Source: Rhodothermales bacterium (lineage in GTDB: Bacteria > Bacteroidota > Rhodothermia > Rhodothermales > UBA10348). From it: DNA of 64,000 bases. Shown here in pieces: positions 2 through 63,232 of this stretch; the stretch's first letter is position 1, and the number at the start of each line of letters is the position of its first letter. The notes below the pieces were generated by a model, which saw nothing but the letters and a program-made list of their open reading frames with translations, did no database searches and had not been told where the DNA came from. The translations under genes were made by a program, and so were the position numbers. The stretch is taken from positions 1 to 64,000 of the forward strand of contig JANJTM010000022.1 of NCBI GenBank assembly GCA_024711125.1. The letters run 5' to 3'.

Positions 2-3000
2 GAGGACGGCCTGACCGGGGACGAGGTGCGTTCGATCGCCCAGGACCGGAACGGTCTCGTGTGGATCGGCACCACCCGGGGTCTCAACCGGTTCGACGGG
101 GAACGCTTCGAGCACTATTTCCCGGATCCGGGTGATTCGACGAGCATTCCGCACCTTCGCGTGGACGCGCTGCTGTCCACCCGATCGGGCCGGTTGCTGA
201 TCGGCTCGCAGGACGGGCTTGCCCGTTACGACGAAGCCACCAACTCTTTCCGCACGTACCCTGTACCCCGGGTCCTTCCCGACGCTCGCGTGGTCGCGCA
301 TGCGTTCCACGAGTCGTCCGACGGTACGGTGTGGATCGGAACCTGGGAAAACGGGCTCCTTCGACTTGACCCGGGTTCGGACGTGCCCGTGTCCGTGACC
401 GTTACCGGCGGAATCCCGTTGACGGGACCCCGTCCGGGAACGACGACCGTCCGCGCGGTGGCCGAGGACGCGTCCGGTTGCCTCTGGATCGCCTCGCTGC
501 GCGGCGTTGCCTGCCTCGACCCGGAAACCGGACGCCGCGATCTCCCCGCGTGGCCGGACGCCACGATCCGCACGCTGCAGCAGGTCATCTCGTTCGCCAT
601 CCACAGCGATGAGCGGGGTTATCTCTGGGTGGCCTCCACGGAGGGATTGCACCGCGTCGAGCGGACTACGGGCCGCCTCAAGACGTTCTTCGCCGATTTT
701 CCGGACGATTTTCGTAGGGTTCGGAGTCTCGCCACGGACGAAACCGGTGGGCTCTGGGCGGCGACCGGTGGCGGCCTGGCCCGATTCGGGCCGGACAGGG
801 ATCGGTTCGTCGCGTACGTGCACGACCCCATTCGCCCCGGTTCCCTTCCCGACGGTGGCATCTCCTCCCTGTTCCGGGATGCGTCGGGCATCCTGTGGGT
901 CGGAACCGACCGACAGGGCATCGCGCTGGCCGACCTGGAAGCCAGGCCGCTTCACTCCGTCCGTTCCGTACCGGGCGACCCGACCTCCCTGCCGCCCGGT
1001 AACGTGAACGGCATCGTCACGACCGGGGACGGAACCGTGTGGGTGGGCACGGACAGCGGATTCGGGACCTGGGACCCGGCCAGCGAGCGATTCACGAGGC
1101 GTCCCATCAACGGCGCGTTCAGGGGGACGACGGCCCTGTACATCGACCGTCGGGATCGTCTCTGGGTTGCGTCCGCACCGGTCGGACCCTGCCTGTTCGA
1201 CCGGCGATCGGGTTCGTGTACCCCGTGGCCCGGTTGGCCGGCAGGGACCGGTGCCGTGTATGCGATGGCCGAGACCCCCGACGGCCACCTGTGGGCGGCC
1301 ACGTACGAAGGCCTCTTCCGCTATTCCGAGGGAGAAGGGCGTCTCGAGTTGTTCCGCAGCGACCCCGACGATCCGGCGACTCTCAGCAACTCCTTCGTGC
1401 TTGCCCTGCTGCCGGATCCGTCAGGCCAGCTCTGGATCGGGACGGAATCGGGATTGGATCGATACCTGTACGCCGGCGGACGCATGGAACGCGTGCTTCG
1501 GGCGGACGGAAGACCGGGGAGCCTGGCCGACGGCGCGGTGGGCCACCTGAGCCTGGACGGTTCGGGCAGGATCTGGATCGCGGGTCACGGCGTGCGCAGA
1601 CTCGACCCCAAGTCCGGTCGGGTCGAGGACCTGGATCCGCTCCTGCCCGAGCAGCGCACCGGCATGCCCAAGTCGCTGATCCTCGATCACGCCGGTCGGG
1701 CATGGATCGACTACGACGGCACCGTCGTCGCCCTGTCCGTGCAGGATTCCGTCGTCAAGCGCTTTGACGGCCTGCCCGGCCGCCGGTCCCTCTCGAATCC
1801 GCTGGCAGCGCAGCACCGCGCTGCTGACGGGCGGCTATACCTGGGGTTCGACGACGGGTTCTACGTGTTCCACCCCGATTCCGTGGGTGCCAGCCCGTAT
1901 CCCGTGCGCGCCGTGGTCACCGGGGTTTCCCGGAACGGGGTCCGCACGGCGGGAGTGCTGCAGGAGGGCGCGGACCTCTCCTTCGGTCCTGATGACCGCA
2001 TCGTCGCGTTCGAATTCGGGTCGACCCACTTCGGGGATCCGTTCGCCCACCGGTACCGATTCCTGCTGGAGGGCTTCGATCCCGACTGGCGTTGGAGCGA
2101 CACCGGGATCGGAACGTACACCGCGCTGGCCCCGGGCTCGTATCGGTTGCGCGTGAACGCGGTCGAGCCGGGCGGGCAGATCGCCACGACGGAAACGACG
2201 CTCCATGTCCGTGTACGTCCGGCGTGGTGGGCGACCCTGTGGTTCCGCGTGCTCGCGGCAATTGCAGGGATCGGAGTCGTCGCGTTCGTGGTGACGCTGC
2301 GACTGCGATCGATCGTGGAACGTAATCGCGAGTTGGACCGCCTCGTCGCGGAGCGTACCGACCGTATCGCGGAACAGTCCGAACAGCTCGCACGCCAGGC
2401 GGCCGACCTGCTGGAAGCCGACGCCGCGAAATCCCGGTTCTTCTCGAACGTGAGCCACGAGCTGCGCACGCCGCTGACGCTCATCACCGGGTATCTCGAC
2501 GACATGCTCGAGTCCGGGCAGCCCGCCGATCGATCGCGGCTTCAGCGTGTACACGAGCTTGCGGAGCGGATGGGGCTGTTGGTCGGCCAACTGCTCGACC
2601 TGGCGCGTTCCGACGCGGGCAGGCTCCAATTCGCGCCGAAGCGTGGTGAGTTGACGGCCTTCGTACGCCGGGTGGTCGAGCATTTCGCCGTTTCCGCACG
2701 CTCCGCCGGCATCGAACTGGTGCTGGAGCACGACGACCGCGAACTCTGGCTCGACTTCGACCCGGACAAGATCGACCAGGTCCTGGCCAACCTGCTGGGA
2801 AACGCCCTGAAGTTCACCCCGACCGGCGGTTCCGTCTGGTTGACCGTCTCCGCGACCGAGGACGACGTGCTGGTTCGGGTTGCCGATACGGGTCCGGGGA
2901 TTCCGGGCGAATCGACGGAGCGCATCTTCGACCGATTCTACCAGGTCGAGGACACGCTCACCCGGTCGAAGGGCGGATTGGGGATCGGCCTTTCGTTGTC

Positions 3001-3913
3001 GCGGGATTTCGCCCGGTTGCACGGCGGCTCGCTCACGGTCGACAGCGAGCCGGGAAGCGGCAGCGTGTTCACGCTCGCGCTCCCGATGCCTACCGGCGTT
3101 CCTGCCGGGGAAGATCCGCCCCCTCCGACCGTCTTCTTCCGACCGGACGAATCGATCGCGGAGGCCCCGGGCGAACTACGCCCCATGGTCCTGGTCGTCG
3201 AGGACGAACCCGAACTTCGGCAGTTCCTCGTCGACCTGCTACGCGGGGAATTCCGGGTCGTGGCGGCCGCGGACGGCAAGGAAGCGTGGGAGCGTCTTCA
3301 GTCCCTCCGCCCCGACGCAATCCTCAGTGACGTGATGATGCCGGGTCTCAGCGGTCTCGACCTGCTGCGGGCGGTGCGGCAGCACGACGAGCTGTTCACC
3401 GTTCCCGTGGTCCTCCTCACGGCCCGAGCATCGCTTGCGGACCAGCTCGAAGGGCTCGAGGCCGAAGCCGACGATTTCGTGCCCAAGCCGTTCAACGGAC
3501 GGCTTCTCAAGCGCCGTCTCCTGAACCTGGTCGCCCTGCGACACCGACTGCGGCTGGACCCCCCGGCCCATCACACGACGAATCGCCCATCCGAGGACAC
3601 GGAGTTCCTGGAACGCGTCGAGCGCGCCGTTTCGGAACGAATCGCCGATCCGACGCTCCAGGTGGCCGACGTTGCCGACGCCGTATTCATGAGCGAACGC
3701 ACGTTCCAGCGCCGGATCAAGGACCTGACCGGTCTGTCCGCGGGTGCGCACCTTCGCCTCCTGCGGCTCGAACGAGCGCGCGCCCTGCTGGACGCGCGAC
3801 AGGCGAGAAGCGTCACGGCCGCCGCACAGGCCATCGGCTTCGTGAACGTGTCCCACTTCGCCCGGGCGTTCGAGCAGACATTCGGCGTTTCGCCGAGATC
3901 GTTCGTGGAGTGA
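2..3913 (+). CDS. Hybrid two-component sensor/regulator (HTCS), 5' end outside the window
   Basis: One polypeptide carries a periplasmic sensor, a histidine kinase, a receiver and a DNA-binding output. The frame is open to the window edge, and a GTG at 26 lies inside the first propeller blade, so the true start is upstream. Numbering from 26: two-component-regulator propeller repeats to about residue 620 (recurrent WIGT, LWVAS and DGTVWVGT strings), a Y_Y_Y domain at about 640-730, and a membrane segment at about 737-760. The HisKA box has H811 in SHELRTP, and the ATPase has N926 and D954 in DTGPGIP. The receiver phospho-acceptor is D1102 in SDVMMPG, and an AraC-type double helix-turn-helix occupies about 1190-1295. 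In Bacteroidota such proteins usually sense oligosaccharides and switch on nearby utilisation genes. The target here is unknown; the GH81/GH5 genes are more than 40 kb away. Confidence 0.95.
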   Translation, partial: EDGLTGDEVRSIAQDRNGLVWIGTTRGLNRFDGERFEHYFPDPGDSTSIPHLRVDALLSTRSGRLLIGSQDGLARYDEATNSFRTYPVPRVLPDARVVAHAFHESSDGTVWIGTWENGLLRLDPGSDVPVSVTVTGGIPLTGPRPGTTTVRAVAEDASGCLWIASLRGVACLDPETGRRDLPAWPDATIRTLQQVISFAIHSDERGYLWVASTEGLHRVERTTGRLKTFFADFPDDFRRVRSLATDETGGLWAATGGGLARFGPDRDRFVAYVHDPIRPGSLPDGGISSLFRDASGILWVGTDRQGIALADLEARPLHSVRSVPGDPTSLPPGNVNGIVTTGDGTVWVGTDSGFGTWDPASERFTRRPINGAFRGTTALYIDRRDRLWVASAPVGPCLFDRRSGSCTPWPGWPAGTGAVYAMAETPDGHLWAATYEGLFRYSEGEGRLELFRSDPDDPATLSNSFVLALLPDPSGQLWIGTESGLDRYLYAGGRMERVLRADGRPGSLADGAVGHLSLDGSGRIWIAGHGVRRLDPKSGRVEDLDPLLPEQRTGMPKSLILDHAGRAWIDYDGTVVALSVQDSVVKRFDGLPGRRSLSNPLAAQHRAADGRLYLGFDDGFYVFHPDSVGASPYPVRAVVTGVSRNGVRTAGVLQEGADLSFGPDDRIVAFEFGSTHFGDPFAHRYRFLLEGFDPDWRWSDTGIGTYTALAPGSYRLRVNAVEPGGQIATTETTLHVRVRPAWWATLWFRVLAAIAGIGVVAFVVTLRLRSIVERNRELDRLVAERTDRIAEQSEQLARQAADLLEADAAKSRFFSNVSHELRTPLTLITGYLDDMLESGQPADRSRLQRVHELAERMGLLVGQLLDLARSDAGRLQFAPKRGELTAFVRRVVEHFAVSARSAGIELVLEHDDRELWLDFDPDKIDQVLANLLGNALKFTPTGGSVWLTVSATEDDVLVRVADTGPGIPGESTERIFDRFYQVEDTLTRSKGGLGIGLSLSRDFARLHGGSLTVDSEPGSGSVFTLALPMPTGVPAGEDPPPPTVFFRPDESIAEAPGELRPMVLVVEDEPELRQFLVDLLRGEFRVVAAADGKEAWERLQSLRPDAILSDVMMPGLSGLDLLRAVRQHDELFTVPVVLLTARASLADQLEGLEAEADDFVPKPFNGRLLKRRLLNLVALRHRLRLDPPAHHTTNRPSEDTEFLERVERAVSERIADPTLQVADVADAVFMSERTFQRRIKDLTGLSAGAHLRLLRLERARALLDARQARSVTAAAQAIGFVNVSHFARAFEQTFGVSPRSFVE

Positions 3914-3998
3914 GGACCGGCGGTTGCCCGTCGCGGCAGCGCCGTTGCGAATTTGGCTCGGAGGCATGGCAGGGGTTTTTCGTTGGGCCGCTTGTGGC

Positions 3999-4006
3999 TA
4001 GGTTCC
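3999..4006 (+). promoter_or_regulatory. Candidate -7 box TAGGTTCC of the S9 peptidase gene
   Basis: The box resembles the Bacteroidota TAnnTTTG element. TTTT lies 19 bases upstream at 3976-3979, which is the expected place for a -33 element. It sits 25 bases before the ATG at 4032, implying a short leader. Confidence 0.35.
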
Positions 4007-4031
4007 GGGATCAAGCCGACCACCCACGTCC

Positions 4032-6893
4032 ATGACCACGATTCGCCCGGCAGCCTGCATCGCGTTGATCCTGCTGGTTGTCGCCGTCCCGTCCGTCCAC
4101 GCCCAGCGCCGCTCCCGTCCCGCGCCTCCCCCACCGCCGAAGAAGGCCATGGACCACGCCGACGTGGACCGGTGGCGGTACGTCTCGGGCCAGCGGTTGT
4201 CGGACGACGGCGCCTGGGCCGTCTGGCGCGAGTGGCCCGATACGATCGGAGACGGCGAGGTCGTCGTGCGCTCGACCGACGGGCGCACGACGCACCGCAT
4301 CGTTCGCGGCGACAACGGGCAGGTAACCGCCGATTCGCGCTTCGCGGTTGCGATCGTCAAGCCGCCCTACGACTCGACCCGGGCGGCGAAGATGGCGGGA
4401 AAGAAGGGCGACAAGCTGCCCAAGGACTCGCTCGTGGTCATCGACCTGGCTACCGGCACCCGGTTCGGGTACGGTCGCGTGAAGTCCTATGCCGTTCCGG
4501 AGCGCGCCGGTGGCGTGCTGGCCGTGCTGTTCGAGGCCGAGCCGGATACGGCGAAAACGAAGGCAAAGCCCGATTCGACGGCCAACGGGGCGAAGAAGGA
4601 TTCGACCGCCGTGAAGCATGACAAGACCGACGGTACCCGGCTCGTGCTGCGTCATCTCGCCACGGGTGCGGAGGCCGCGTTCCCGTGGGTGCGCGAGTAC
4701 CGGTTGAGCCGCGACGGCGCCTGGCTCGTGTACACGGCCGAGAACAAGGCGGGTACGGCCGACGCGGCGATCGCGGTGCACACCGACGCCGGTGTCGTGG
4801 ATACGCTGCTCTCCGGGGCCGGATACTACCGGCAGCTCGCGCTCAGCGACGCTTCCGACCAGGTGGCGTTCCTCTCGAACACGGCCGATTTCGCGGCGAA
4901 ACAGCCGGTCTTCACGCTGTACCGGGCGACGCTCGGCGAACCCGTGGCGGCGCTCGCGAGCGAGGGCCAACCGGGCCTGGCGCAGGGGTGGTGGGTGAGC
5001 GAAAACGCGTCGCTGGATTTCTCCCGCGACGGGTCGCGGCTCTTCTTCGGCACGGCTCCCCGGCCGGAACCGGAGCCCGAGGAGGACAAGCGGCCGGACG
5101 AGGAAAAGATCAAGCTCGACGTGTGGGCCTGGACGGATCCCCTCCTGCAGCCCATGCAGCTGGTGCAGAAGGACCGGGAGCTCAAGCGCACGTACCGGGC
5201 GGTGGTCTTCCGCTCGGACAACCGGATCGTGCAGCTGGCCACGCTCGACATGCCGGAGGTCAGCGTGCCCGGCAACGGCAACGCGGCGACGGCGATCGGC
5301 ACCTCGAATCTGCCCTATCGACAGGAGATCAGCTGGGAGTCACCCGGCTTCACCGACATCTATGCCGTGGACGTCGCGACCGGCGCCCGCCGGCTGCTGC
5401 TCGAAGCGAACCGCTCGTTCCCGCAGGCCTCGCCCACGGGGGCGCACATCGCCTGGTTCGACGGCGCCGAGCGCGTCTGGAAGGTCACCGATACGGCAAC
5501 CGGAGCGACGAATGCATGGCCGACGGGTACGGCCGTGCACAACGAACTGGATGACGAGCCGATGCTGCCCGGTTCGTACGGTTCGGCCGGCTGGTCTGAC
5601 GACGGGGGCGCGTTCGTCTTCTACGACAGTCACGATCTCTGGATCGCGTCGCCGCGTGGCCCGATGATCGCGAACATGACCGACGGCAAGGGCCGCGAGC
5701 AGGGCGTCCGCTACCGGTTCGTGCAGCTCGATGCCGACGCAACCGGCATCGACCTCACGAAACCGCTTTTCCTGACGTCGTTCGACCTGGAGACCAAGGC
5801 GAGCGGCTTCGCGCTGCTCTCGCAGGGGTCGGAAGGGCCGGCGCCCCTCGTGACCGGCGCGGCAGACTTCGGCACTCCGCGCAAGGCCCGCTCGGCCGAC
5901 CGGCTGCTGTATACCCGCGAGACGTTCGTCGAATTCCCCGACCTGTGGACGGCCGGGCTCGACCTGAAGACGCCGCTGCGCCTCTCCGACGCCAACCCGC
6001 AGCAGGCGGAATACCGCTGGGGCACGGCCGAGCTCGTGCACTGGACGAGCGTGGACGGCATTCCGCTGGACGGCATCCTGTTCAAGCCGGACGGCTACGA
6101 CGCCTCGAAACCCCATCCGACGATCGTCAACTTCTACGAGCGCGATTCGGACGGGCTGCACTCGTGGCGCTCTCCCCGGTTCGGAGGTTCATCGGTGGCG
6201 ATCCCGTTCTACGTGAGCCGCGGGTACGTCGTCTTCATGCCCGACGTGCCCTACAAGGCCGGATACCCGGGCGAGTCGGCCATGAACGCCGTGATGCCGG
6301 GCGTCACGATGCTGATCGACCGCGGAATCGCCGACCGGGAGCGCATCGGCGCCCAGGGACACTCCTGGGGCGGGTACCAGCTGACCTACATGATCACGCA
6401 GACGAACCTCTTCGCCGCCGTCGAGGCCGGCGCGCCGGTCGTCAACATGACGAGCGCGTACGGCGGCATCCGCTGGGGCTCGGGCATGAGCCGGGCGTTC
6501 CAGTACGAGCGCACGCAGAGCCGGATCGGCGGATCGCTCTGGGAGCGCCCGTTGCACTACATCCACAACTCGCCGCTCTTCCAGCTCGACAAGGTCGAGA
6601 CCCCGCTGCTGTACATGCACAACGACCAGGACGGCGCCGTGCCGTGGGAGCAGGGTATCGAGCTGTTCTCGGCGCTGCGCCGACTGCAGAAGCCGGTATG
6701 GATGCTCAACTACAACGGCGCCGACCACGGGCTCTCGAACTACTTCCAGCGCAAGGACTTCGCGCAGCGGATGCAGCAGTTCTTCGACCATTACCTCCTG
6801 GGCACCCCGATGCCGGTCTGGATGGCGGAAGGCATTCCGGCCGTGAAAAAGGGCCGGACGCTCGGTCTCGAAACGGTAGGCGGCGACCGCTGA
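4032..6893 (+). CDS. Secreted S9-family (prolyl oligopeptidase-type) serine peptidase
   Basis: Predicted exported peptidase of 953 residues. The N-terminal signal peptide ends VHAQ, with Gln as likely first mature residue. The next 640 or so residues form the propeller/TolB-like part typical of S9 enzymes, interrupted at about 175-200 by a Lys/Asp/Ser/Thr-rich linker. The C-terminal alpha/beta hydrolase carries nucleophile S778 in GHSWGGY, an acid in the NDQDG loop (D865 or D867) and H899 in GADHG. The family cleaves short peptides, often after Pro or Ala, in the periplasm or outside the cell; the exact specificity cannot be read. It stands alone downstream of the sensor gene, and its 3' end is shared with a terminator hairpin. 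A second, divergent relative lies at 30689-33481. Confidence 0.93.
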   Translation: MTTIRPAACIALILLVVAVPSVHAQRRSRPAPPPPPKKAMDHADVDRWRYVSGQRLSDDGAWAVWREWPDTIGDGEVVVRSTDGRTTHRIVRGDNGQVTADSRFAVAIVKPPYDSTRAAKMAGKKGDKLPKDSLVVIDLATGTRFGYGRVKSYAVPERAGGVLAVLFEAEPDTAKTKAKPDSTANGAKKDSTAVKHDKTDGTRLVLRHLATGAEAAFPWVREYRLSRDGAWLVYTAENKAGTADAAIAVHTDAGVVDTLLSGAGYYRQLALSDASDQVAFLSNTADFAAKQPVFTLYRATLGEPVAALASEGQPGLAQGWWVSENASLDFSRDGSRLFFGTAPRPEPEPEEDKRPDEEKIKLDVWAWTDPLLQPMQLVQKDRELKRTYRAVVFRSDNRIVQLATLDMPEVSVPGNGNAATAIGTSNLPYRQEISWESPGFTDIYAVDVATGARRLLLEANRSFPQASPTGAHIAWFDGAERVWKVTDTATGATNAWPTGTAVHNELDDEPMLPGSYGSAGWSDDGGAFVFYDSHDLWIASPRGPMIANMTDGKGREQGVRYRFVQLDADATGIDLTKPLFLTSFDLETKASGFALLSQGSEGPAPLVTGAADFGTPRKARSADRLLYTRETFVEFPDLWTAGLDLKTPLRLSDANPQQAEYRWGTAELVHWTSVDGIPLDGILFKPDGYDASKPHPTIVNFYERDSDGLHSWRSPRFGGSSVAIPFYVSRGYVVFMPDVPYKAGYPGESAMNAVMPGVTMLIDRGIADRERIGAQGHSWGGYQLTYMITQTNLFAAVEAGAPVVNMTSAYGGIRWGSGMSRAFQYERTQSRIGGSLWERPLHYIHNSPLFQLDKVETPLLYMHNDQDGAVPWEQGIELFSALRRLQKPVWMLNYNGADHGLSNYFQRKDFAQRMQQFFDHYLLGTPMPVWMAEGIPAVKKGRTLGLETVGGDR

Positions 6894-6910
6894 TGGTGGC
6901 CGCCTACCGT
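6873..6910. terminator. Bidirectional hairpin built into two convergent gene ends
   Basis: A 16-base inverted repeat (6873-6888 and 6895-6910, one mismatch) has a 6-base loop containing the peptidase stop codon. The left arm encodes the last peptidase residues and the right arm covers the stop of the opposite gene. There is no T-run on the plus strand. Confidence 0.6.
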
Positions 6911-9900
6911 ACCAGGACCGCCGGACGCAGGTCGCGCAGCCGGCCCGAGCTAAGGCTGAACAGGTATACGCCGCTGGCTGCCGGGCGGCCGGACGAATCC
7001 CGGCCGTCCCAGGCCAGCAGGTGGCGGCCCGGAGGCGACGAGCCCTCGGACAGCACGACCACCTCCCGGCCGAGGAGGTCGTAGACGCTCACCCGTACGT
7101 CGGCGGCTTCGGACAGCGTCATCACGAGCGTCGTGGTCGTTCGGAACGGATTGGGGAAATTCCCCTCGATCCGGGTCCGGGCGGGAACGTCGGCCGCCGG
7201 TGCCGCCGCGGTCGGAACCAGGACGGTACTGCGCGAGGCCAGGAGCCACGTCTCGAAAAAGGTCGTGTAGGCTGCGGAGACCGACCGGTTCGCCCGGTCG
7301 AGCGTCGAGGGGAGCGCCTCCAGTTCACCGCTCAGCGGGTTGAAGCCGGCCACGACGAGCGAATCCTCCAGGAACGCCGGGTCGGCCGGGAAGTCGCGCG
7401 AGGGCACGTACGTGAAGGCGACGCGGGCCACCGTCGACGCCTCGGGCAGCGTCCCGAACAAGGTCCAGTGCGTCCGGATAGGCAGTAACCCCTCCGCCAG
7501 GTAATCGGTCGGGACGAGCGGCGGGAAGGCGTTCTTCGACGCGGTGAGCGGCCCGTCGAACCGATGGGCGGTGGCCGTTCCGCCCACCGGATTCGCGGTG
7601 AAGGCCAGGGCTGCGCCGACGATCCCGAACGATGCCGAGACTGCCCCCGGCGCCACCTGCACGGTCGAAGCCTGGGCGGGAACACGCACCTCCACCTCGA
7701 CCGAGTCGCGGGCCATGAGACGCTGCGACCCGTCCCGCAGCCGCGCGACGAAGCGGACCCGGGCCGCACCCGACGGGACTTTCCGTCCGGGTGCGGAGAC
7801 GTCCACCCGGCCGAAGACGTCGTCGGTCGTCGTCGCGATCGATCCGACGTGTCCGGTCGCATCCACCCGTTCGAGCGGGGCGCCGGTGGGTCCGTAGGTC
7901 TCGATCCGGTCCACGTCCACCTGCCAGCCCGTGGCGCCGGGGAGATTGACGCGCCAGGTGAGACCGGCATTCGCCGCCAGGTCGTCGCCCGCCACGAAGT
8001 ACGAGCGTCCGAGACGGAGTTGCGGCTGGCCGGCCGTGTACGTCGTCGGGAAGACCGACGGCGCGTCGTCGTCGACGTCGCTGTCCTCGCGCCGGTCTCC
8101 GAAGTTCAACAGGCCCGGCGACCGCACGTTGACGCCGGCGCTGTCCGACGCCACCATCCGTCCCTGGTCGTCGAAGAGCCGGATGTGCATGAAGAACTCG
8201 CTCTTGGTCGGCGTCGCGTGGAGCGGAAAGACCGGATCGATGCGCTGTTCGGCCGCCAGGTCCGTTCCCGGCGGCACGGCCAGCGACCGCGAGCCGAGCG
8301 ACGTGAGCACCGTGTTCGTGCCGCGAAGGCGCTCCTCGAAGGTCATCTCGAACCGTCCATTCCCGCCTGCCGTCGAAAGCGTGTACTGGAACCGGATCAG
8401 CGCGGCGGCGGTCGTGCCCTGGACCGGGGAATCGAGACTGCCCCGGGTCACGGGGTGGACGGCTTCGAAACGGAAGCGACTCCGCGGACCCTTCACCAGG
8501 AAGCGCTCCACGTTCGAACTTTCCCCCTCGGACTCCCCGTCCGGGATCAGTTCCGCGTTCACCTCCACGAAATCCCCGTTGGCCGGGACCACGGCACCGA
8601 TCTTGCCGAGTTCGGCCGCGGTTTGGTCCTGCGTGAGGTCTACGGGTTCCGAAGACGCGATGATGGCGCCCTTCGGATCCTTGAGGTGGACCACGACCCG
8701 CCCCCGTTCGGCGGTCCGGAAGCGGATGAAGTCGGCGACGACCTCGACCTCGACGCTGTCGCCGGCCGCGAACTCGGTCGCATCCTCCCGGGTCAGGTCA
8801 CCGTGGTCGTCCTCGAAGATGCGCGACGCGCCGACGACGATGTGGATGTCGTCCGTATACACCGCACCGCCGCCCACGAACGGCACGTAGTCGACGCCGT
8901 CCCCGACGACGATCCCCTTTCCGCGCGAATTCTGCAGGCCGTCGGCGTTCGACCGGTCGAGCGGACCCGAAGGATCACCCCACCAGTTGTTCTCGGCGTT
9001 CACGTAGACGCCCTGCGTGTATCGGCCGCCGAACGTCGGCGCGTTCACGTTCGAACCCTCGAGCGAGAACCGGTTTCCGTGGATTCTCAGGCCGTTTCTC
9101 CGGATGTTCTGGCTCGGATACGCCGCAAAGGCCGTCGCGAAATTCGAGACTTCGTTGCCGCTGACTTCGACGTCCGCGTCCATCACGAGGACCATGGCTC
9201 GTCCGCCCGGAGTCCCCTTCGACGGGTTGTTCGTTCCGCGAAACGTATTGCCCGCGATGGTCGCGCGGAAGTTCACGCGGTCGTACCCGCGAACCGTCTC
9301 GAGAACGGTGGTGCCGTTTTCCATCTCGAGACCCGTCGTGGTCTCGAACGTATTCCCGGTCACGACGGCGCTGCCCGTGACCGGCCCCCAGGGCGTCGAC
9401 TCGGGATACCCCATGTTCTCGGCCACCGGGCCGATGACGAGGCCGACGGTGATGACGTTGGACCCTTCCGGGTAGGATCCCCCGGGCACCAGCAGGCTGC
9501 GCACCGTATTGCCGGAAAAGACGGGAGACTTGCCTCGCAGATCGAGGCGGGACCCGCCGCCCGAGGGAAAGGCCAACTCGAATTCGTTGTCCGTGATCAC
9601 CGGCGACGTGTTCACGAGATTCTGGGCCGACACGTCGCTCATGCCCCCGAAAACCAGGAACCGGTTCCCCGTGATGCGCATGTCGCCGACCGACCAGACT
9701 GCGCCGCAGTACTTGATCGTGCTGTTCGTGATCCGGTTGTCGCCGCGCGCATTGAACTGCAGGCGGTACGCCATGCGGGGCGGGTCGGCCGGACCGTCGA
9801 TCGGGATCACGGCCCCCACCGAATGGTCACGCACGTCGGTGATCGTGGCCCCGTCGATCCGGATCGACGTCCCGGGCTGAACGGCCCAGAGGCGCTGGTC

Positions 9901-58387: not shown

Positions 58388-60133
58388 ATGGAACATCCCT
58401 TCCCGTCTCGCACCCGGATCCGCGTCGGACCGGCGCTGTCCGTCCTCGCCGCGATCCTCGTGGCCGCCCTCACCCCGCGTCCGGCCGCATCGCAGGCCGC
58501 CGCCCACGCCGACGTCGAGGCGGCTCGCGCCGCGGCGGCACGACCGGGCGGAAACGGCGCCCGCTTCGAGGTATCCTTCGCCGCCTCGGCGCACGGAGGC
58601 CCGCTCACCGGCCGGGCGTTCCTCTTCCTGTCGAAGGACCCCGAGCCCGAGCCGCGCCTGCAGACGGGCCTGCACATGCGCAGCGGCACGCCCATGTTCG
58701 GCGTGGCCGTCGAAGCCGCGAATCCCGGAGACGCGGTCGTATTCGACGCCTCGGCCCACGGCTTTCCGTACACCTCCATCGATGACCTGCCGGCCGGCGA
58801 GTACTACGCGCAGGCGCTCTTCAACGTCTACACCGAGTTCCGCCGCGTCGACGGCCACACGGTCTGGATGCACGACGACCGGTGGGAAGGCCAGAAGCTC
58901 ACGGTTTCTCCCGGAAACCTGTATTCGCCCGTGCAACGCGTGTACCTCGACCCGGCGCAGCCGCAGACGGTCCGGCTCGTCGCCGACCGCGTGATCCCGC
59001 CCGTCGAGATTCCGCCCGACACCGAGTGGGTGAAGCGGTTCCGGTTCCAGTCGAAGATCCTGAGCGACTGGTGGGGGCGGCCGATCTACCTCGGCGCGAC
59101 CGTGCTGCTCCCGAAGGGCTATGCGGAACACCCGTCCGTGAAATACCCCGTCAACTACATCCAGGGGCACTTTTCGCTCGGCAATCCCGACGGGTTCAAC
59201 CCCATCGAGCCGGCCGAGGGCGAGACCCGCGGCCGCGCCGGGTACGAGTTCTACCGGTGGTGGACGTCCGACGAGGCCCCGCGCTTCCTCGCCGTGACAT
59301 TCCAGCATCCGACCCCGTACTACGACGACTCGTACGCGGTCAATTCCGAGAACAACGGGCCCTACGGCGATGCGATCCTGCAGGAGCTGATCCCCGAGGT
59401 CGAGAAACGCTTCCGCGTGATCGGCGAGCCCTGGTCGCGGGTGCTGACGGGCGGCTCGACCGGCGGATGGGAGTCGCTCGCGCTCCAGATCTTCCACCCG
59501 GACTTCTTCGGCGGAACGTGGTCGCTCTGTCCCGACCCCGTGGACTTCCGCGCGTACGGGCTCGTCAACATCTACGAGGACGAAAACGCCTACTGGCGCT
59601 CGTTCAACGGCATCAAGGCCGACCGCGGCGAGTCGCGCGAGACCGACGGCCAGCTGCGCTACACGATCCGGCAGGGCAATTCGTACGAGTGGATGCTCGG
59701 CCCGAACTCGCGCAGCGGGCAGCAGTGGCACATCTGGGAGGCGACCTACTCGCCGGTGGGCAGCGACGGGTACCCGCAACGGCTCTGGGACTGGAAGACC
59801 GGCGCGATCGACCGGCGGGTGGCCGAGGCGTGGCGCAAGTACGACCTGACGGACTACCTGAAGACGAACTGGTCGTGGATCGGTCCGAAGCTGGTCGGAA
59901 AACTCCACGTCTACACCGGCGACATGGATACGTACTTCCTCAACAACGCCGTCGTGCTGATGGAGGAGTTCCTCGAGTCGACCACGGCACCGTACTACGC
60001 CGGGGTCATTCGATACGGCGACCGGCAGCCGCACTGCTGGGGCCCGCGCGGCCGCGAGGTGTACGAGCTCTTCGACGCGCACATCCGCCTGCATGCGCCG
60101 GAGGGCGCCGATCTCGCATCGTGGCACTACTGA
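58388..60133 (+). CDS. Exported esterase D-like alpha/beta hydrolase
   Basis: 581 residues with a signal peptide ending AASQ. Residues about 55-205 are a beta-rich N-terminal domain (VSFAASAHGGPLTGRAFLF). The hydrolase domain has a putative-esterase layout: YLGATVLLPKGYAEHP, YPVNYIQGH, nucleophile S357 in TGGSTGGWES, HPDFFGGTWSLCPDPVDF, and PHCWGPRG, which probably supplies the His. Related enzymes remove feruloyl or acetyl groups from polysaccharides, or hydrolyse small esters, but the substrate is unknown. The TPR gene starts within its last 13 bases, so the two are translationally coupled. Confidence 0.88.
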   Translation: MEHPFPSRTRIRVGPALSVLAAILVAALTPRPAASQAAAHADVEAARAAAARPGGNGARFEVSFAASAHGGPLTGRAFLFLSKDPEPEPRLQTGLHMRSGTPMFGVAVEAANPGDAVVFDASAHGFPYTSIDDLPAGEYYAQALFNVYTEFRRVDGHTVWMHDDRWEGQKLTVSPGNLYSPVQRVYLDPAQPQTVRLVADRVIPPVEIPPDTEWVKRFRFQSKILSDWWGRPIYLGATVLLPKGYAEHPSVKYPVNYIQGHFSLGNPDGFNPIEPAEGETRGRAGYEFYRWWTSDEAPRFLAVTFQHPTPYYDDSYAVNSENNGPYGDAILQELIPEVEKRFRVIGEPWSRVLTGGSTGGWESLALQIFHPDFFGGTWSLCPDPVDFRAYGLVNIYEDENAYWRSFNGIKADRGESRETDGQLRYTIRQGNSYEWMLGPNSRSGQQWHIWEATYSPVGSDGYPQRLWDWKTGAIDRRVAEAWRKYDLTDYLKTNWSWIGPKLVGKLHVYTGDMDTYFLNNAVVLMEEFLESTTAPYYAGVIRYGDRQPHCWGPRGREVYELFDAHIRLHAPEGADLASWHY

Positions 60134-60915
60134 GAGCTTTCTTCCTCGCCCTCGCCCTGGTCGGCGCTCTCCCCGCCGCGGCCCGCCAGGCCCCGGACGA
60201 TCCGGAGTCCCGCGGCGACCGGCTCGCCGCGGCGTTCGACAACGCCGGCGCGATCGAGGCCTACGAGGAAGCGCTGGCGCGCCTGGGCGACCAGGCCGGG
60301 TACGAACTGCGCGCCAAGTACGTGCACGTCACGATCGACCGCGGCATGGACCTGGCCTGGGCCCGGGACCTCGAGGCCGCCGAACCCGTGATCACGCGCG
60401 GAATGGAACTCGCCCAGGCCCTGAAGGCCGACTACCCCGACCGCGCCGAAACGTGGCTCCTGCTGGCGATAGCGAACGGCTCGGCCGCCCAGTTCCGCAG
60501 CGGCCGCGAGAAGGTGCGTGCGGGATGGGACATCGAGGCCTACTGCAAGGAAGCGATCCGCCTCGATCCCTCGTTTCCGCTGCCCTATATCGCCCTGGGC
60601 AAGTTCTACGGCGAAATCGCAGGACTGAACTGGTTCATCCGCCAGATCGCACAGGCGCTGTACGGACGCATTCCGAAAGGATCCTACGAACAGTCGCTCG
60701 AGATGCTGGACCGCGCCATCGAGCTCGACCCGAACGTATCGATCGCCCACTACGAGCGGGGGGTGACCCTCTTCCACATGAAGCGGGACGCCGAGGCCGA
60801 AGCCGCCTGGCGGCGCGCGCTCGAACTGCCCCCTATGACCACGCGGGATGTCCAGCACAACCGGCGGATCCGGAGACGGCTGGGTATCGAGCCGCCTCCC
60901 GTCGAAGCCCCCTGA
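60121..60915 (+). CDS. Exported TPR-repeat protein
   Basis: 264 residues from GTG at 60121. This start gives a convincing signal peptide (MALLRAFFLALALVGAL to AAARQ) and overlaps the esterase stop. Helical repeats follow: AAFDNAGAIEAYEEALARLG, AETWLLLAIANGSAAQF, LPYIALGKFYGEIAGLNW and IAHYERGVTLFHMKRDAEAEAAWRRAL, a tetratricopeptide array resembling regulator-of-microtubule-dynamics-type proteins in bacteria. It probably acts as a periplasmic scaffold or chaperone, possibly for the esterase it is coupled to. Confidence 0.87.
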   Translation: MALLRAFFLALALVGALPAAARQAPDDPESRGDRLAAAFDNAGAIEAYEEALARLGDQAGYELRAKYVHVTIDRGMDLAWARDLEAAEPVITRGMELAQALKADYPDRAETWLLLAIANGSAAQFRSGREKVRAGWDIEAYCKEAIRLDPSFPLPYIALGKFYGEIAGLNWFIRQIAQALYGRIPKGSYEQSLEMLDRAIELDPNVSIAHYERGVTLFHMKRDAEAEAAWRRALELPPMTTRDVQHNRRIRRRLGIEPPPVEAP

Positions 60916-60967: not shown

Positions 60968-62473
60968 ATGAAGCCACCCTTCCGATTCGATTTCGACGAG
61001 ATCGTCACCATCGTGACGGACGACCCCGAGTACGCCGAGGTGAACGGCGAGCGGGGCGTGATCCTCGGGCGCACCGAGGACCCGGACGATGCCGAGTACG
61101 GCGTGTTCGTCTACCGCGAAGAGTGCGTCTGGCAGGTCCCCGAAGCGCACCTCGTCGCGACCGGGGAGCACGAGATCCGCGAGCCCGCGACCACGATCCT
61201 GAAGGTTCGCGTCGACGCGCAGGGGCGCGGGACGCTTCTCGCCCTGTTTTTCGCGCTCCTGGCGGGCCTCGGCTGCGGGCCAAAGCCGCCCGCACGCGTC
61301 GTCACCCCCGAAGTCGCCACCCGCATCGACTCGACGCTCGCCCGCTTCGTCGCCGACGGACGCGTCGCCGGCGTCTCGGCCGTCGTGTGGGAGAAAGGGG
61401 CGGAAGCCTATTTCGGGGCCTACGGATATGCCGACCGCGAAATGGGAGCCCTCATGGCTCGCAACACCCTCGTCCAGATCCGCTCGATGACCAAGCCGAT
61501 CACGGGTGTCGCCCTCATGACCCTGTACGAGCAGGGCGCCTTCGACCTCGACGACCCCGTGTCGAAATACGCTCCGGAATGGGCCGACCTCACCGTATAC
61601 GCCGGCGACGACTCGACCGGCGCGCCGATCTTCGAGCCGCTCGAGCGGCCCCTGACGATCCGGGACCTGACACGCCACACGGCCGGGCTCACCAACGATC
61701 AGAACGCGCCGGGCATCGGACCGCTGCTGCGGGCCGCCGACCCGATGAACCCGTCGAATACGCTCGAAGAGATGTCGCGGCGGCTGGCGTCGGTTCCGCT
61801 CCTGCACCAGCCCGGGGCCCGGTGGAATTACGGACCCGCCGTGGACGTGCAGGCCTGGCTCGTGGAGAAGATCTCGGGCGTACCGTTCGAACGCTACGTG
61901 CGCGAACACGTGCTGGACCCCCTGGGCATGGAGCACACCCGCTATCTCGTTCCCGAAGGTGAGCGGCACCGGTTGGCCGCCACGTACCTGCGGGACCAGG
62001 GTCCCGAACTCGTGCGTCAGCCCGATTCGATCGCCTTCGCGATCAACACCCGGGAATGGCCGCTGCGATCGGGCGGATCGGGCCTCACCTCGACGATCGA
62101 CGACTACCTTCGCTTCGCCCGGATGCTGCTCGGCCGCGGCGAACTCGACAGGGTGCGCATCCTGAAGCCCGGAACCGTGGACCTGATGGCGACGAACCAG
62201 CTCGACGACGCCGTCACCGACCGCATGTGGCTCCCCTCGAAGGGCCAGGTCGGGTTCGGAATCGACTTCGCCGTGCGCGTGCGACCGCCCGCCTCGCCGG
62301 AAGAAGCCGCCGGCGTGGTCGGCGAGTTCTTCTGGGACGGCGCCGCCTCGACCCTTTTCTGGGTGGACCCCGCCAACGACCTCGCCGCGGTGTTTTTCGT
62401 CCAGCTCCTCCCATTCGACGGCGTCGGACTGCACAAGGGGTTCCGCGACGCGGTGTACGGGGTGGCGCGGTAG
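60968..62473 (+). CDS. Imm31-like domain fused in frame to a lipoprotein-type serine hydrolase
   Basis: 501 residues with no stop between two parts that look like separate genes. Residues 1-75 (FDFDEIVTIVTDD, GERGVILGRTEDPDD, EYGVFVYREECVWQVPEAHL) resemble the small cytosolic Imm31 immunity family. Then comes a basic stretch, a hydrophobic core LLALFFALLAGLGC with a lipobox (C103), and a class C beta-lactamase/esterase domain with S173-M-T-K176, WNYGP as the Tyr motif and ending near residue 500. The hydrophobic core is what a lipoprotein start would look like, but no ATG, GTG or TTG lies in frame just before it. Either a real fusion with an internal membrane segment, a non-standard start, or a sequence error. 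Start chosen at the only upstream ATG that gives the Imm31 fold. Confidence 0.7.
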   Translation: MKPPFRFDFDEIVTIVTDDPEYAEVNGERGVILGRTEDPDDAEYGVFVYREECVWQVPEAHLVATGEHEIREPATTILKVRVDAQGRGTLLALFFALLAGLGCGPKPPARVVTPEVATRIDSTLARFVADGRVAGVSAVVWEKGAEAYFGAYGYADREMGALMARNTLVQIRSMTKPITGVALMTLYEQGAFDLDDPVSKYAPEWADLTVYAGDDSTGAPIFEPLERPLTIRDLTRHTAGLTNDQNAPGIGPLLRAADPMNPSNTLEEMSRRLASVPLLHQPGARWNYGPAVDVQAWLVEKISGVPFERYVREHVLDPLGMEHTRYLVPEGERHRLAATYLRDQGPELVRQPDSIAFAINTREWPLRSGGSGLTSTIDDYLRFARMLLGRGELDRVRILKPGTVDLMATNQLDDAVTDRMWLPSKGQVGFGIDFAVRVRPPASPEEAAGVVGEFFWDGAASTLFWVDPANDLAAVFFVQLLPFDGVGLHKGFRDAVYGVAR

Positions 62474-62595: not shown

Positions 62596-62907
62596 ATGGC
62601 CCAACCCGCAGTTCTTCCCCACGCAGCCATCGCCGAATTCTGCCGGCGGTGGAGGATCGTGGAATTCGCTGTGTTCGGCTCCGCCTTGCGACCGGACTTC
62701 AAGGACAGCAGCGATATCGACGTACTCGTGCGGCTCGCCCCCGAATCGGGCCATACGCTCTTCGATATGGTCCGCATGCAGGACGAACTGGAGGTAATGC
62801 TCGGGAGAAAGGTCGACCTTGTGAGCCGCAAGGGCATCGAAGCGAGTCGCAACGAGATTCGGCGAGAGGAGATCCTGTCCTCGGCCCAAGTGCTCTATGC
62901 AGCGTGA
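62596..62907 (+). CDS. mntA: MNT-domain nucleotidyltransferase antitoxin
   Basis: 103 residues. The minimal nucleotidyltransferase motif GSx10DxD is intact: G28-S29, D40 and D42 (FGSALRPDF, DSSDIDVLV), followed by the helix DMVRMQDELEVMLGRKVDLVS. In studied pairs this enzyme AMPylates a Tyr of its HEPN partner and so neutralises it. It overlaps hepT by 11 bases, the usual tight coupling. Confidence 0.94.
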   Translation: MAQPAVLPHAAIAEFCRRWRIVEFAVFGSALRPDFKDSSDIDVLVRLAPESGHTLFDMVRMQDELEVMLGRKVDLVSRKGIEASRNEIRREEILSSAQVLYAA

Positions 62908-63232
62908 CCGGGCCCACATACTCGACATCCGCGAGGCCGCGAGACTTGCGATCTTGTATGTGGAAGGTGTCGAAAAGGACGATTTCCTGACGGACTCACG
63001 AATTCAGGACTCCGTGATTCGAAGGATTGAGATCATCGGCGAGGCGGCGCGCCGGGTATCGGATCGGACTCGGACCTTGAATCCAGGTGTCCCCTGGCGC
63101 GAGATGATCGGAATGCGGAATCTCCTCATCCACGACTACGACGACGTCGATGCGGAGGTCGTCTGGCAAACCGTGAAGGACGGGCTTCCTCATCTGCTCG
63201 ATCAGCTCGCACGTTTGTCGTTTCCGGATTGA
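62897..63232 (+). CDS. hepT: HEPN-domain RNase toxin (HepT)
   Basis: 111 residues, all helical. The catalytic RX4HXY motif is R74-NLLI-H79-D-Y81; Y81 is the residue modified by MntA in characterised systems. The front (DIREAARLAILYVEGV) and RRIEIIGEAARRVSD are typical HepT. It cleaves RNA, tRNA in some cases, when freed from modification. It forms a toxin-antitoxin module with the overlapping upstream gene, with no prophage or plasmid genes around it. Confidence 0.94.
   Translation: MQRDRAHILDIREAARLAILYVEGVEKDDFLTDSRIQDSVIRRIEIIGEAARRVSDRTRTLNPGVPWREMIGMRNLLIHDYDDVDAEVVWQTVKDGLPHLLDQLARLSFPD

Follow-up and report, generated by a model that had tools for sequence, protein, structure and literature searches.

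Does a single open frame that runs from an immunity-type domain through a lipoprotein-type signal into a serine hydrolase encode a protein with a part on either side of the inner membrane, or does it combine two ordinary genes that have come to be read as one? The frame in question lies on the plus strand of the window (the whole 64,000-nucleotide stretch of DNA analysed here), where it extends from an ATG at 60968 to a stop at 62473 without an internal stop and encodes 501 amino acids. It contains, in this order, a complete Imm31-like domain, a short lipoprotein-type signal with a cysteine at residue 103 and a complete PF00144 hydrolase (Table 1). The open frame, together with Pfam matches to both domains, confirms the in-frame fusion of an Imm31-like domain to a lipoprotein-type serine hydrolase that an earlier note on this DNA had described. 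As set out below, the likeliest account is that two ordinary genes were joined locally and by chance, whether in the genome itself or in assembly, and that the fusion is no new conserved design.

Table 1. Features of the fused frame, in window coordinates
Feature	Position	Strand	Description
Imm31-like domain	60968..61237	+	Residues 1-90, complete to last conserved residue L90; PF15591 match and alignment to G031, Photobacterium and G323 proteins
Join	61232..61240	+	Residues 89-91 (ACG CTT CTC); Imm31 stop, any intergenic stretch and hydrolase start missing
Hydrophobic stretch of lipoprotein-type signal with Cys103	61232..61276	+	Hydropathy reaching 2.5 over 13 residues; GLGC resembles a lipobox
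Beta-lactamase/esterase-fold hydrolase (PF00144)	61325..62413	+	Residues 120-482, 219 bits (Pfam); S173-M-T-K176 and Y288
Catalytic SxxK motif (SMTK, residues 173-176)	61484..61495	+	S173 and K176 invariant in a 21-row alignment

The two domains and their relatives

Proteins of the Imm31 family (PF15591) are predicted to be all-beta and to confer immunity in polymorphic toxin systems (Zhang et al. 2012, PMC3482391). Residues 6-68 of the frame match this model with 25.9 bits when the whole frame is searched and with 29.7 bits when the N-terminal part is searched alone, values that are borderline but above the curated cut-off of 25 bits. Though borderline in Pfam, the domain assignment is sound, because residues 3-88 are about 50% identical to a stand-alone protein from a genome of the same order (G031), which scores 40.3 bits on Imm31 and to which the N-terminal part of the frame is most closely related. 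The last strands of this part are predicted, with low confidence, at residues 75-81 or 79-91, and a fold search with the Imm31 model (pLDDT 63) returned weak SH3/KOW-like matches alone, with E-values of 0.065 or worse. The domain aligns over its full length with stand-alone members of the family, including a protein from a polymorphic-toxin-like immunity cluster of Photobacterium; unlike these, it has no stop of its own and reads into the lipoprotein signal. Further, rather than being a stand-alone small protein that adjoins a polymorphic toxin, it is part of an in-frame fusion, and neither an Ntox17/Ntox7-type gene nor any other toxin gene was recognised among the neighbouring genes checked.

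Imm31-like domains are rare, being found in 4 of 245 genomes of the class (2 above the cut-off) and, by protein search, in 4 of 394 genomes of the phylum, with none over the cut-off in 349 Pseudomonadota genomes. No relatives were found in phages and viral contigs, and a single one was found on plasmids, in Photobacterium. None of the other Imm31-like proteins in these three genome sets is fused to a hydrolase, and all of the relatives stand alone. On the plasmid of Photobacterium sp. GJ3 (positions 1756-7769 of locus L124), the Imm31-like gene belongs to a cluster that follows polymorphic-toxin-like genes and is made up of ankyrin genes and small genes of immunity type, and the same plasmid carries near-identical duplicated blocks at 1756-3068 and 3374-4686.

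In the hydrolase, Y288 is invariant in the same 21-row alignment as the SxxK residues, and the predicted structure is confident (pLDDT mostly above 90). Its best solved relative is an esterase (PDB 7pp3, 237 bits), and its best NCBIfam model is the methyl acetate hydrolase AcmB, an identity that was rejected on account of a score of 190 bits, far under the AcmB cut-off of 550. Among solved structures and curated families it is nearest to esterases, and it may act as an esterase rather than a beta-lactamase. It retains the SxxK motif and the tyrosine of the family VIII-type esterases/carboxylesterases, which share the PF00144 fold, and differs from these relatives in its N-terminal extension.

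Homologues of the hydrolase were read upstream in frame at 80 public-genome loci, mostly of Bacteroidota (about 53-63% identical), and at 3 loci from the same order (58-65%). Those with a readable N-terminus begin with a methionine of their own and a short signal, mostly of lipoprotein type. The stand-alone Bacteroidota lipoprotein serine hydrolases (53-65% identical) are the same enzyme as that of the window, with a hydrophobic signal that ends in Cys in most of them; the difference is that each of them has a start codon and a charged signal end of its own, both of which are absent from the window copy. A profile search recovered no Imm31-like frame within the hydrolase-homologue loci, with matches confined to the window itself and the Imm31 loci fetched. 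The search for homologues with the same domain order found the fusion in one genome only, and no second instance in about 80 public loci, 60 relatives and the 245 class, 394 phylum and 349 Pseudomonadota genomes. The possibility raised in the earlier note, that homologues always occur as separate genes, holds for the approximately 80 hydrolase homologues, none of which has an Imm31-like domain fused or nearby.

A pairing of separate genes was observed in G031, the one other genome of the order with an Imm31-like gene, where this stand-alone gene has, about 150 bp downstream in the same orientation, a gene for a Big_2 + PF00144 lipoprotein hydrolase (contig C238, locus L125, 4015-6213). This hydrolase is 28% identical to that of the window and is not its orthologue, which in G031 lies on another contig than the Imm31-like gene and has its own signal. 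With about 22 PF00144 genes in 6.2 Mb, and assuming about 1 gene per kb, the chance of such a gene at one given neighbouring position is about 0.4%, a figure to be read with the pairing having been noticed post hoc. No PF00144 neighbour lies beside the Imm31-like gene in either Photobacterium or G323. Imm31-like and hydrolase genes may sometimes be neighbours, an adjacency that would also be a route to fusion.

The join and the signal behind it

In the alignment, the window and the stand-alone Imm31-like proteins correspond as far as L90, and the latter end 2-11 residues further on, which places the join at residues 89-91. The aligned C-termini at this point read ...RVRVDKDGRGHLVEEGGSPPG-stop in G031, ...SVSVTQDGEGKLKQ-stop in Photobacterium and ...KVRVDAQGRGTLLALFF in the window. 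Over a longer span, the G031 protein ends in ...GTSIRVRVDKDGRGHLVEEGGSPPG-stop and the Photobacterium protein in ...GESISVSVTQDGEGKLKQ-stop, to which the window aligns as ...TTILKVRVDAQGRGTLLALFF; the relative in G323 is shorter and terminates earlier. This alignment with stand-alone proteins identifies ILKVRVDAQGRG as the conserved tail of Imm31, despite its likeness to a signal peptide's charged end. The hydrophobic part of the hydrolase signal directly abuts L90, and hence the frame lacks both a stop for Imm31 and a start, with a charged end, for the hydrolase.

The signal, LLALFFALLAGLGC, terminates at Cys103 (61274-61276) and fits the loose PROSITE-like pattern {DERK}6-[LIVMFWSTAG]2-[LIVMFYSTAGCQ]-[AGS]-C. 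The strict lipobox L-[AS]-[GA]-C is absent at Cys103, the sequence there being an atypical GLGC (-3 Gly, -2 Leu), and residue 103 is far past the usual position of a lipoprotein Cys. The hydrophobic stretch before it comprises 13-14 residues, a size typical of signal peptides and short for a lasting membrane pass. The earlier statement that no standard start precedes the signal closely is borne out: there is no in-frame ATG, GTG or TTG within the 56 codons before Cys103, the closest upstream in-frame standard starts being 57, 72 and 78 codons away, all within the Imm31 domain, and none of these codons occurs in any frame at 61126-61272. In a lipoprotein, the start and the positive end would be expected no more than about 35 residues ahead of the Cys, and the window has two further clear lipoprotein signals, whose starts precede their Cys by 17 and 23 residues.

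Origin of the fused frame

Of the two readings offered in the earlier note, the starts of the homologues, the stand-alone Imm31 proteins and a join that falls exactly where the Imm31 domain ends speak more for the one in which two genes have been deprived of a start or stop. The frameshift or missing single base envisaged in the same note does not account for it: no start would return in any of the frames, and the two alternative frames have no nearby stop to end the Imm31 domain. As no change of one base can turn the frame into two separate genes, the explanation requires that more sequence is missing. We tentatively favour, with a little less than even confidence, the loss of a short stretch in this lineage that joined neighbouring Imm31-like and lipoprotein hydrolase genes in frame, with a product that is exported and cut at Cys103. 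What was lost would be the stop of the Imm31-like gene, any spacer, and the beginning of the hydrolase gene with its start and the charged end of the signal. The fused product would be translated from the ATG at 60968, and K79, R81 and R87 of the Imm31 tail could provide the signal with its positively charged side, such that the Imm31 part would stay cytosolic while the hydrolase is exported. Processing by Lgt/LspA at Cys103 would then cut the chain into an esterase-like enzyme, by then a normal lipoprotein, and a separate Imm31 piece, which would stay in the cytosol with a short hydrophobic tail attached. Judged from its sequence, the protein, if expressed, would probably undergo this cut into an ordinary lipoprotein hydrolase and an Imm31 remnant, because a stretch of 13-14 residues is more in keeping with a cleavable signal than with a stable pass; the atypical lipobox makes the cut uncertain. 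A chromosomal deletion, expression of the frame and cutting at Cys103 are the three events that we infer here.

The same missing piece could instead have been lost from the contig, tens of bases or more having dropped out at the join by an assembly or consensus error while the two genes are separate in reality. The piece absent is exactly that required by two separate genes, the genome is an 81-contig draft, and the fusion occurs in one genome only, with no second genome from the genus, for which reason an assembly loss stays in consideration. Yet an in-frame, stop-free outcome is not guaranteed by chance, both flanks are coding-like in their codon-position GC with an even GC3 of 0.86-0.94 across the join, and the assembly is rated 99.3% complete and 0.09% contaminated. 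Further, a search of the genome found no collapse-prone repeat or second copy at the join, the 201 bp around which are unique, and the join lies away from the edge of its 65.8 kb contig, with sequence continuing on both sides. This mildly favours a real deletion, and we regard the error as somewhat unlikely. An unlikely explanation, too, is that one frame gives two products, with the hydrolase initiating within the Imm31 gene at a non-standard ATC (61196), CTG (61199) or ACG (61232), such that MLKVRVDAQGRGTLLALFFALLAGLGC or a shorter form would be an ordinary signal peptide while the Imm31 protein would still continue into the hydrolase. These codons are in frame at a suitable distance, and a start at 61196 or 61199 would put K and R ahead of the hydrophobic stretch. 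However, CUG is a poor start, accounting for about 0.024% of bacterial start codons with an output of 0.86% of that of AUG (PMC11497404), and residues 77-88 belong to the conserved Imm31 tail and so did not originate as a signal.

The proposal of a selected working protein, with a cytosolic Imm31-like domain and a periplasmic hydrolase connected across the inner membrane, stands insofar as there is one frame with both domains complete, and the G031 pairing could be taken in its favour. Against it, the fusion recurs neither in the hydrolase homologues (about 80) nor in Imm31-like proteins from the class, phylum and Pseudomonadota genomes, the G031 hydrolase is not orthologous and its pairing was spotted after the fact, and the hydrophobic stretch is short for a lasting pass; we consider such a protein quite improbable. 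That it would supply the cytosolic Imm31-like part and the periplasmic hydrolase in equal amounts, as a two-sided protein or as a precursor split by signal peptidase II, building on a G031-type pairing, is a very remote prospect. With a chance local join as the most likely origin, the frame is a useful case of two ordinary genes turning into one, and a caution against taking singleton fusions in draft genomes for new architectures. If it is expressed and cut at Cys103, it would also indicate that a folded cytosolic domain can stand ahead of a lipoprotein signal.

Neighbouring genes

Upstream of the fused frame, just after a PF00756 esterase gene, positions 60121-60915 encode an exported repeat-type protein, probably starting at GTG 60121, which has no match in Pfam or NCBIfam. 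Directly downstream lies an MNT/HEPN toxin-antitoxin pair (62596-63232; PADLOC match PDC-S09), in which the genes for an MntA-like nucleotidyltransferase (62596-62907) and a HepT-like (HEPN) protein (62897-63232) overlap by 11 bp.
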